DNA of 46,934 bases from an uncultured bacterium (GTDB lineage Bacteria > Patescibacteriota > Gracilibacteria > Absconditabacterales > Absconditicoccaceae), in NCBI GenBank assembly GCA_903904875.1, contig CAIVEC010000006.1:1-46934 (forward strand). Reading direction: 5' to 3'. Positions 4,141-8,992 of the stretch are shown in pieces. How positions within the stretch are numbered: the first letter of the stretch is position 1; the number at the start of each line of letters is the position of its first letter. The position numbers and the translations under genes are program-made. Below the pieces are notes generated by a model that saw only the letters and a program-made list of their open reading frames with translations, was not told the DNA's origin and made no database searches.

Positions 4141-4318
4141 ATATTCTTTTTTATGTTTATATTTTTTATACCAAAATACCAATAAAAGTCAAGTCATTTG
4201 CTTTTGTATTCACTGAATGTGCCTTTGATTTCCTTATTTTTTTTTGTTTTTGCACAGGAAATCCCCATACATACCGTGTGATTCAATTTTGAATTTTAAA
4301 TTTTAAATTTAAAAACTA

Positions 4319-5245
4319 ATGAAAAAAGTATTGATTATAGTGACTTCTGTATTACTTTTGTTTGGTATAACAACCGCTGCTACAGGGGATTTACGGGATT
4401 GGATGGATAATCTCAATAGTGAAATTCCGTTCGGATATGCCGTCAGCCAAAAAATCTCTGTCGATCAGATTGCCGTCGATAAGATTATCATCAAGTCACC
4501 GGTCATCCAAGACGAACTCGGTAATAAGATCAAAAAATATACGGTGATGTTCTCTCAATATCCATTATCCCAGATCTTAGAAAATACTGCTTTGCTCGAT
4601 CAATCCAAAGAAAAAACATTTGAATTCACTACGGTGGATACTAATGTGACTATGGAACTAGATTCGCTTGCAGATGGCATCAATCCGAGTGTGGTCTATT
4701 ATGTTTCCGTTATTCCAAAAGACCAGAATGGAATCCTCGGAGAAATATCCAATGAACTTCGATTTAAGCTTGCTACGCAATCATATGGCGAAGGGAATAC
4801 TACGGGTAGCGTACCACCTGCTCATACTGCTGCTGGTGCTGATATGAGTCTGGCTAATATAACCCATACTATCACCGCCAATAGAGCGACATTGAGATGG
4901 ACTGCGGTAGATGGTTCAGATAAAGTTGATATATTTCTCCGGAATCCAACCAGTCAAATGTTTGAAAGGCTTGATACGGTAAATATGTCTGCTGAAAGTT
5001 ATGCGTTTACCCTTACGAGAAACGGTGAATATATCGTCAATTTCATGCCAAACAATGGAGGAACAGAATATCGTTATACCTTTGTTGCTAATTGAATAAC
5101 TGCTGTTGGTAGCACTACTACCAGCAATCCTGCTATCGGAAAAATTCCTGCTACCGGACCAAAAGAAAATATATTAGTCGCTTTAGCGATTGCGTTTGTT
5201 CTCTATCTTGTCTATAGAAAAATGAAAGCTAAAGCTAAACACTAA
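4319..5245 (+). CDS. Secreted FN3-like surface protein with TGP-ENIL C-terminal anchor
   Basis: 308 aa, reading through one TGA at 5093. Residues 1-20 are a signal peptide (MKKVLIIVTSVLLLFGITTA). The body contains two Ig/FN3-like beta-sandwich segments (YTVMFSQYPLSQI with VVYYVSVIPKDQNGI; ANRATLRWTAVDGSDKVDI). The C-terminus is a sorting-signal-like triplet: IPATGPKENIL, a hydrophobic helix (VALAIAFVLYLVY) and a basic tail (RKMKAKAKH). This resembles LPxTG logic without being canonical, and the same TGPxENIL motif recurs in the protein at 29795-31441. Likely an exported, envelope-anchored adhesin or structural protein; the substrate is unknown. Confidence 0.75.
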
Positions 5246-5288: not shown

Positions 5289-5315
5289 GCAAGTCCGCGG
5301 ATGCGGGCTTTTTTT
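5289..5315 (+). terminator. Rho-independent terminator of the 4319-5245 gene
   Basis: AAGTCCGC-ggat-GCGGGCTT followed by a T run. One G-T wobble in the stem. Confidence 0.8.
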
Positions 5316-5372
5316 ATAAAGTTTGACTCTAGTCTGAAGTTTAAGACAGAGTCTGTTAGAGAAAGTTTATTA

Positions 5373-5678
5373 TTACCTAACTTGGTCAAATGGTATTACT
5401 GTTCCTGAAACGATTTTTACTTCTTCGTCAGAATATACCTTCAGGATTTTATAGATGCCTTTTGTTTCATTATGACCTACAGTGATTTCAGTGATTATGA
5501 TACGAGCAATAACCTGCCAATCAGGTGTCATTAACTCTATTGGCGTATCAATCATAAATAATCTGTGACCATCTTTTTTGAAGGGATATTCTTTTCCTTC
5601 CACTAAATGAACACGTTCAATAAGTCATTGTTCTTTACTGATTCTTAAACAACCTTGTTGTGACCGAGTAGCTCCCAT
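5373..5678 (-). CDS. Small unknown protein, gene following the attC site
   Basis: The ORF track starts at 5603, but the reading extends upstream through a TGA to ATG at 5676-5678, giving 101 aa (MGATRSQQGCLRISKEQ-G-LIERVH). The sequence is mixed with many Ile/Val strands (QVIARIIITEITVGHNETKGIY), suggesting a small beta-rich fold. No signal or membrane segment. It begins ~28 nt after the GTTAGGC core of the putative attC (in minus orientation), the position expected for the next gene in a cassette array, though no second attC is visible beyond its stop. Function unknown. Confidence 0.65.
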
Positions 5679-5705
5679 AAGTATATGTTATGTGTTAAAA
5701 TTTTC

Positions 5706-5794
5706 GCCTAACGTTTGCTTCTGTAACGACGCAGACGCCGTTCCTTAAAATTTGATATGGCAGGCGGCGTGTTGTACAGAAGCTGTTATATGGC
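5706..5794 (-). repeat. Putative integron attC recombination site
   Basis: In minus orientation the 89-nt element starts GCCATATAAC and ends GTTAGGC, which matches the GTTRRRY crossover core. Between them GCTTCTGTA and TACAGAAGC form the L-box-like arms, continued by imperfect CACGCCGCC/GGCGTCTGCG pairing with unpaired bases. It lies directly after the stop of the 5831-6217 gene and before the next start, the standard cassette position. GCCATATAA is exactly complementary to TTATATGGC at the upstream cassette edge (6251-6260), as expected for a cassette that integrated from a circle. Confidence 0.65.
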
Positions 5795-5830
5795 CGAGCT
5801 TTTGCGAGGTTTACGTACATTTTTTATTTC

Positions 5831-6217
5831 TTAATTATTTTCATTGAGTATTGTTATAATACTCTTGGTGGTGGCCACACCATTTCTATCAAGATTATCT
5901 ATTAGCTCAGAATATGGAAACTTTTTTGCCCATTTCATTAAATCAGATTTGTTTTTGTCATCTCCATATGCAAATCAAATGTATTTATGTGGTATTTTAT
6001 CATCTAAATTTGAACTTATTTTCGCCATAAATGGGCAATTATTTAGTAATGTAGGATCATCAAATCCAAATCTTGCCTTAACATTTATGTTACTGTCAGT
6101 AAATATATTAAATTCTTGATTGAAATACCATGGATTATGACGGATTTGAAAATCTTTATGTAGTTTTCAAAATTCTGATTCAGGGCCTTTTGGAAATAAT
6201 TTGTTTAAAAGTTTCAT
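5831..6217 (-). CDS. Unknown protein encoded by putative integron cassette
   Basis: 128 aa, absent from the ORF track because two TGA codons interrupt it (after SEF and after HKYI). It begins MKLLNKLFPKGPESEF and contains a compact hydrophilic domain with the signature PWYFNQEFNIF, then IGFAYGDDKNKSDLMKWAKK and a helical tail ending TAA. No signal peptide or membrane helix; probably cytoplasmic. It is flanked by a GTTATATGGC core upstream (6251-6260) and the attC downstream, so the pair looks like one mobile gene cassette. Its in-frame UGA codons mean it is adapted to the host code. Family not recognised. Confidence 0.75.
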
Positions 6218-6250
6218 ATTCTTGAATTGGTAATAGAAATAAAAATGTAT

Positions 6251-6260
6251 GCCATATAAC
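6251..6260 (-). other. Upstream core site of the putative cassette (G/TTATATGGC)
   Basis: Minus-strand GTTATATGGC lies between the stop of 6282-6794 and the start of 5831-6217. Its TTATATGGC is the exact complement of GCCATATAA at the start of the attC, so in a free circle the two would sit next to each other and complete a perfect R'/R'' pair. Confidence 0.55.
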
Positions 6261-6281
6261 TATTTTCTGTGTGACATGATT

Positions 6282-6794
6282 CTATCAGAATAACTTGTAG
6301 ATACCTACGGTGAGGAGCGTGGTAAGCCGGCCTATGATTTCCATGAATGCTTTCGCTGTGCTCTTTTTCTTGGTCTGTTTATTAATCATATTCCGCTGAT
6401 CTGCTGAGACTATCTGCTGTCCGAGGCTCTGTTCGATGGAAAGTATTTCTTGCTTGATCGCTTTCGCGTTCGCTAAATAATTCTCGTGTTCGCTTTCCAT
6501 GACCACTTTGATTCCCTTGATTTCTTGGCTAGCAGGATTTCCGTATTGAGCCTTGGCTATTTGATATCGTAACATATCATACAACAATACCAGGTTTTCA
6601 TGGATCCTTTTATGTCTTCTGAGTAATTTACGATGGATGAACATCAATAAGAGTATGAGGACGATGTATCACAAAATCACCAACAGCAATATTTCTGCTT
6701 TAGGTTCTGTCCGTCCGCTGACATTCGCCATGATGTGCACGATTTTTCATCGGAAGATATCGAGCTGCGCGACTATAGTATTCCGTGTTTGCAT
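6282..6794 (-). CDS. Single-pass membrane protein with helical cytoplasmic domain
   Basis: 170 aa reading through three TGA codons (6285 and two in the N-terminal third). After ~34 polar residues comes one strong membrane helix (AEILLLVILGYIVLILLLMF), a basic stop-transfer (RKLLRRHKR) and a long helical region (HENLVLLYDMLRYQIAKAQ to AIKQEILSIEQSLGQQI). I considered LemA, which has a similar one-helix plus coiled layout, but the conserved LemA motifs are not there. Function unknown. It ends 22 nt before the cassette core site. Confidence 0.7.
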
Positions 6795-8360: not shown

Positions 8361-8434
8361 CAAGGCCGGATTTGAAAAATTTCAGTAAAACTTTATACTT
8401 ATGAGTACTATATATTTATGTTTTTTACAATCAA

Positions 8435-8992
8435 ATGAAAGATTCATCCGCGAAGGCGGGCAAGACAATCAAAGGTAAAACTGTTGTTAAGGATAAAATT
8501 TTCAAGATCAAGATCGCTGATTTATTGAACGAAACATGAAGACAAGATGAAGTTGTGTTTGAACACAAATTTTCCGATCAATTGCCGAATCTGGATGATG
8601 AAGGTATCGCATGAACATTCACTATCCAATCATTGGATAACACTTCTTTGCTTGGAACGCTCACCGGTGTGACTGCTCGTTTTCATGAAACGTGTGAGAG
8701 TTGCGGAGCATCATTCCTCAGATCAGTAGATATTCCTTCGTATACTGCGAGATTTGTTTTTGAAGATGAAGTTGCCAAGAAAAAAGAACCAGCGGAATCC
8801 GAAGAAGTACTCTTATATATCGATCCAAAAGCTGAAACCATCAATATCGAAGATATGGTCGTCCAAGCTATTTTACTCAACGACCCATTCGTCAAGCGTT
8901 GTGATGCTTGCACCAAGCGTTTAGCAAGTACAGATGATGATGAAGATGATTTAGGCGAATTCGAGTCCAAGTGAAATATAAATTTTTCTTAA
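8435..8992 (+). CDS. YceD/DUF177-like protein
   Basis: 185 aa with three internal TGA codons; the track shows only the 3' two thirds. Residues ~75-100 hold HETCESCGASFLRSVDIP and ~155-170 hold FVKRCDACTKRLA. This paired-cysteine arrangement plus an acidic tail (DDDEDDLGEFESK) resembles DUF177/YceD, linked to 23S rRNA accumulation and often encoded before rpmF. No rpmF is seen here, so the context does not confirm it. Cytoplasmic. Starts 74 nt from divergent tilS. Confidence 0.6.

Follow-up and report, generated by a model that had tools for sequence, protein, structure and literature searches.

Two gene cassettes at an attI-like chromosomal site in a UGA=Gly gracilibacterium point to a Patescibacteria integron system whose recombinase lacks the IntI-specific domain

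What is the 128-aa gene that stands, in an uncultured gracilibacterium of the Absconditicoccaceae reading UGA as glycine (genetic code 25), between a G| edge and an attC-like hairpin, and where did it come from? The window, by which we mean the whole stretch of DNA analysed, comprises 46,934 nucleotides (contig CAIVEC010000006.1 of assembly GCA_903904875.1), and a preliminary description of it had proposed a single integron-like cassette, which would be striking in this lineage. Integron integrases are recognised by an extra domain, believed to be needed for their work on hairpin sites, and complete-looking integrons without that domain, found lineage-wide, make the origin of the integron testable. 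Here, we describe the 128-aa gene as the cargo of a real integron gene cassette, and set out the evidence that the window cassettes very probably come from a Patescibacteria integron system and were captured at an attI-like site between a conserved pair of genes.

The features of the locus are collected in Table 1. Read on the minus strand from 5795 to 5703, the attC of cassette 1 runs GCCATATAAC A GCTTCT ... AGAAGC AAAC GTTAGGC, with its R' crossover at G5712|T5711, and the upstream edge of the cassette, G6260|TTATATGGC, is in minus-strand letters the exact complement of the R'' box GCCATATAA. The site scores 92.1 bits with our first covariance model, R1, in whose training set it was included, and 75.9 bits with a second, R2, while the folding of its single strand beats that of dinucleotide shuffles (z -2.6). 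The positions of gene and hairpin, the complementary edge and the use of UGA for Gly in the gene had all been read correctly in the preliminary description, which had also assigned the downstream core TTAGGC to the next gene, as is borne out by a second cassette starting TTAGGCG at the same crossover. Its claim of one cassette thus stands for cassette 1, with refined limits, but the number is two. The 128-aa protein belongs to no Pfam family, has no homologue in 59 relatives, the wider genome contigs or plasmids, and has a sole match in PHROGs, at E 0.096. The attC of cassette 2 has a signature like that of cassette 1, AACAGACTCT..AGAGTCAAAC, but with the core G replaced by T, and is weak (22.1 bits, E 0.0036 in a covariance search within the window with filters off); it carries the exact pattern AACA-N6...N6'-AAAC. 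We are highly confident, as we are of the explanation as a whole, that the 940 nt from 5320 to 6259 are two integron gene cassettes in tandem.

Table 1. Coordinates of the two cassettes, their recombination sites and the bordering genes (positions in the window)
Feature	Positions	Strand	Description
Gene cassette 1	5712..6259	-	548 nt; starts TTATATGGC; edges complementary to R'' of the attC that it carries; missing from the locus in five same-genus genomes
128-aa cassette gene	5831..6217	-	code 25; two in-frame TGA (UGA-Gly) codons; stop TAA; no assigned function
attC of cassette 1	5703..5795	-	R'' GCCATATAAC, L'' GCTTCT, L' AGAAGC, R' GTTAGGC
Gene cassette 2	5320..5711	-	about 392 nt; starts TTAGGCG; insertion missing in relatives
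101-aa cassette gene	5373..5678	-	one UGA-Gly codon; no assigned function
Decayed short attC of cassette 2	5311..5365	-	55 nt; CTCTAACAGACTCT...AGAGTCAAAC, then T (not G) TTATA
attI-like target half-site	6260..6281	-	...ATGTCACACAGAAAATAG|, directly past the 170-aa gene stop; crossover G6260|T6259
Native 170-aa gene bordering the insertion	6282..6794	-	syntenic with tilS and the 308-aa gene in G001, G004, G006, G007 and G008
Native convergent 308-aa gene, other border	4319..5245	+	71-77% identical and syntenic in G001, G004, G006, G007 and G008

Rfam holds no attC family, a search of it giving a tRNA as the sole match, and a scan with a generic attC regular expression did no better than on shuffles, so the covariance models were built from the sites themselves. 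A DNA search with the cassette 1 site led to a second place in the genome, C37:10696-10753, on a contig whose minus strand carries five arrayed attC separated by small genes, some using UGA for Gly. R1, which was built from the window site and four sites of this array, found exactly six strong sites over the 965-kb genome, namely the window site and the five on C37, one of which (8378-8471) lay outside the training set and scored 54 bits (E 3.9e-9). The covariance search suggested in the preliminary description therefore gave strong matches on both contigs. In the complete C37 cassettes, R'' and the 5' edge of the same cassette agree at five or all of the six positions, and the model-free pattern AACA-N6-gap-complement(N6)-AAAC occurs 10 times in the genome, against 0-3 times in base shuffles; the 10 include four full attC sites as well as the decayed site of cassette 2. 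C37 belongs to a code-25 host, as it carries long code-25 core genes, for example a relA/spoT-like gene with 11 TGA codons, and its array reaches the contig edge on the side expected for an integrase. Conserved neighbours of the array were sought in relatives and none were found, so it does not sit at one fixed chromosomal place. Within the array (L035:9505-11810) are a TPR-repeat gene with six UGA-Gly codons, one cassette that holds two genes, and two small proteins, apparently hydrophobic, whose genes lack UGA.

The surroundings of the window cassettes are, in contrast to the cassettes themselves, kept among relatives. The order tilS, 170-aa gene, 308-aa gene is found in the five same-genus genomes of Table 1 with both cassette genes missing, so that the gene order, proposed earlier as a check, does vary. 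Just past the stop of the 170-aa gene there is a partial match to cassette-free G006, TAGAATCATRTCA, and the flank beyond the second attC, TTTATAAAAAAAGCCC, matches cassette-free G004. Taking out 5320-6259 leaves an intergenic stretch of about 96 bp, compared with 113-137 bp in G007, G008 and G004; those of G001 and G006 are longer and of other sequence. With a position weight matrix (PWM) built from 26 attI sites, the upstream edge of the window insertion scores 14.7 bits, at the low edge of the range of true attI (mostly 14.8-27.4, with one outlier), and ranks third among the 26,464 GTT sites of the genome, while the target half-site is identical to the attI of same-genus G002 at 17 of 20 bases. 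From this rank we infer that the cassettes probably entered at an attI-like chromosomal site. The top match of the matrix in the genome (L014 16713) was set aside as chance, as it overlaps the start of a coding gene and has no cassette nearby. At the same intergenic site G006 has a different extra stretch (L020; G006:C37 near 4157-4789), in which there is a frame containing UGA and no attC was recognised, and the place between the 170-aa and 308-aa genes may be a general insertion spot.

Cassettes in the chromosome outside an integron are described, in the part of PMC11023631 that cites Loot et al. 2024 (doi 10.1038/s41564-023-01548-y), as CALIN or as insertions at attG secondary sites. By that account the window is a similar case, its cassettes lying in the chromosome outside an integron and with no integrase nearby; it differs in having two tandem cassettes and a target that resembles the lineage's own attI. 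The preliminary description had seen no integrase in the window, and the same holds for the whole of the 87%-complete assembly, in which no tyrosine recombinase of any kind was found. A housekeeping Xer lies some 8-10 kb from the homologue of the 170-aa gene in three relatives (G001:C15:78478, G004:C38:21321, G008:C3:18320); with the same spacing the gene would fall just outside the window contig, past its left end, and this may explain the absence of Xer.

The attC arrays that R1 detected in relatives adjoin a tyrosine recombinase of about 270 aa, and a Xer encoded separately, at another place, is present in most of the genomes examined. GTDB genomes were scanned with 15 such array-linked recombinases (protein set A3), which gave 80 recombinase loci, nearly all from Patescibacteria (CPR), among them Gracili-, Peregrini-, Nomura-, Berkel-, Uhr-, Moran-, Dojka- and Microgenomat- groups and others; the host genomes are mostly MAGs, and a few loci may be misbinned. 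When R2 was applied to these loci, all 87 attC matches lay upstream of the recombinase gene and on the other strand, and among the 44 loci where 800 nt or more lie upstream of the recombinase, 35 have attC. Across 353 genomes of the class, 102 have attC and 108 have the recombinase (both 76, attC only 26, recombinase only 32, neither 219), an odds ratio of 20 with a P of 3e-29 that overstates the case, the genomes being related by descent and not independent. The cassette that had seemed striking is therefore real, but it is no curiosity of one genome, the system being widespread in Patescibacteria. Further attC were likewise to be looked for together with an IntI-type recombinase; they exist on C37 and, beside an integrase-like recombinase, in relatives, but that recombinase is not a canonical IntI. 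Recombinases of the Patescibacteria type also occur in bins labelled Margulisiibacteriota, Micrarchaeota, Deltaproteobacteria and Actinomycetota (L250, L251, L253, L197), through either transfer or misbinning.

The weakness of the second attC and the terminator of the convergent gene close to it would sit well with a chance hairpin or terminator beside ordinary lineage-specific genes, a reading that is nonetheless hardly conceivable given the genome-wide scarcity of the pattern, the exact edges, the single orientation of all 87 matches and the empty sites in relatives.

The sites of the lineage follow common rules. In 43 of 71 pairs of neighbouring cassettes the six bases past GTT complement the R'' that follows (a count that includes one locus twice, L146 being L202), as against 3.2% of random pairings. 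Among 60 distinct attC the L stem varies on both sides at all six pairs and 98% of cells are still paired; over the whole structure 91% are paired, compared with 25-38% when the partner is slid, a covariation that supports folding of the attC. A predicted attI insertion point is present in most loci between the recombinase and the first cassette, mainly about 75-190 nt from the recombinase start codon, with the consensus AGTTCGTATAAAAACGAG|TT (26 sites). These stems bear on whether the repeats could instead be dif-like (pdif) modules that the housekeeping XerCD mobilises as double-stranded DNA, as one might suppose from the Xer that these genomes also encode and from the Xer-like size of the array recombinase. 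A pdif would show 28-bp sites with conserved XerC and XerD arms, whereas the array sites are hairpins of 55-150 nt in which stem sequence varies and pairing is kept; moreover, three genomes with Xer only (G005, G008, G017) have no attC match, and the arrays adjoin a second, distinct recombinase, all of which makes this origin most improbable.

With the bacterial integron (class 1 or Vibrio chromosomal, with IntI, attI and attC), the system shares a divergent tyrosine recombinase, which lies beside the array in relatives and is missing from the window's own assembly; an attI with a G|TT crossover before the first cassette; tandem one-way cassettes; and imperfect-hairpin attC at the cassette 3' ends, with a RYYYAAC / GTTRRRY core, G|TT boundaries and an R'' complementary to the cassette's own 5' edge. 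It differs in the spacer between the R and L boxes of attC, of 1 nt and 4 nt (A / AAAC), in an attI that ends TTCGTATAnnaACGAG|TT, and in hosts that are partly UGA=Gly. In the cycle that we propose, the parts would be a divergent recombinase of about 270 aa, an attI ending ACGAG|TT, and cassettes that each close with a hairpin attC. The recombinase would excise a cassette as a circle via the folded, single-stranded attC, and the circle would go into attI at G|TT or, occasionally, into an attI-like secondary site such as that of the window; the newest cassette would lie nearest attI, and the window cassettes would now stand away from any integrase in their own assembly.

The recombinase itself is where the system departs furthest from known integrons. 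Among solved structures, VchIntIA/IntI4 (2A3V) comes closest to it both in sequence and in predicted fold (pLDDT 86), with XerA and XerD behind, and the alignment to 2A3V passes over residues 199-242. In 72 of 73 array recombinases KG..DR and HxLRH are 64 residues apart, as against 106 in IntI1; the IntI-specific additional domain, an insertion of about 42 aa, is absent, and scores with TIGR02249 fall below its 265-bit cut-off. This domain is held to be defining for IntI and necessary for integron recombination (Ghaly et al., PMC9668308), and even the archaeal integrons of the same paper, which likewise lie beyond the usual bacterial phyla and have cassettes common to distant lineages, are reported to have an IntI that retains it, unlike the Patescibacteria recombinase. 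A maximum-likelihood tree, made as a quick search without bootstrap, puts the array recombinases in one clade (SH-aLRT 96), canonical IntI in another (100) and Xer in a third (96), and groups the 11 code-25 recombinases together with support 100; such a topology may fit either a gain of the insertion by IntI or its loss in the array clade.

It follows that the window is very unlikely to hold canonical proteobacteria-type cassettes acquired by a gracilibacterium whose resident system is an ordinary IntI integron: the array recombinases lack the insertion and stand outside IntI in a clade of their own, R2 finds no site in a Vibrio integron region, and the attC of the window genome resemble those of its own family, even though attC, attI and cassette logic equal those of bacterial integrons and one member of the class, G311, has a contig with a bona fide IntI. 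That gene (L107, G311:C21:2373-3356, 460 bits) was set aside as probable contamination or a misbinned contig, of 4.1 kb, with no TGA-Gly genes and no attC of the array type. Since the system is integron-like in every structural test made, yet its integrase lacks the domain that defines IntI, we regard it as a lineage-wide integron variant and not as a plain IntI integron. The array recombinase is missed by a standard IntI search because the insertion is absent, and this would be why integrons of a very large group of bacteria escape searches built on IntI; a search of the open-access literature, apart from preprints and subscription journals, found no description of the system.

Cassettes in such hosts also meet the boundary between genetic codes. 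In a UGA=Gly host a cassette would work only if its gene stops at TAA or TAG; lack of in-frame TGA would let a gene travel between code-25 and standard-code hosts, and a gene that has gained in-frame TGA would be unable to leave. UGA accounts for 28% of Gly codons in the long genes of the genome and for 16% in the seven cassette genes. In one C37 cassette, encoding an M24 peptidase, none of the 17 Gly codons is UGA. Its DNA matches that of one cassette in a Peregrinibacterium (L216) at 78% identity across 776 nt, running from the 5' leader into the attC; TGA is among the stops of that Peregrinibacterium's long frames, in keeping with the standard code. Because this UGA-free cassette is common to both kinds of genome, cassettes have probably moved between code-25 and standard-code Patescibacteria, by what would be a gene route over the code boundary. 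We incline, with some reserve, to the broader reading that Patescibacteria hold an ancient integron class of their own, with an integrase that never had or has lost the IntI domain and would yet recombine folded attC, and with cassettes that would move between standard-code and UGA=Gly hosts. If true, an integron without the IntI domain would be a pre-IntI stage or a second origin of hairpin-cassette capture.

Two further sets of recombinases deserve mention. One member of the Patescibacteria clade (L108; G244:C73:1378-2307) is 348 aa long, scores 231 bits with TIGR02249 and has a long insertion between KG..DR and HxLRH, in a place comparable to that of the IntI insertion; it is a possible intermediate. 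The short Xer/XerA-type recombinases of IS91 and Tn3 plasmids (NF040815, recomb_XerA_Arch) resemble the array recombinases in length, in having no insertion and in a C-terminal SP[LF], but stand outside the Patescibacteria clade, the member shown falling just below the NF040815 cut-off, and in the records examined they neighbour IS91 or Tn3 transposases and not a cassette array. Two of these short IntI-like recombinases without the insertion, L272, with an adjoining IS91 transposase on an Agathobacter plasmid, and L275, with a Tn3 transposase near it on a Flagellimonas plasmid, may serve as outgroups in tracing how integron integrases arose.
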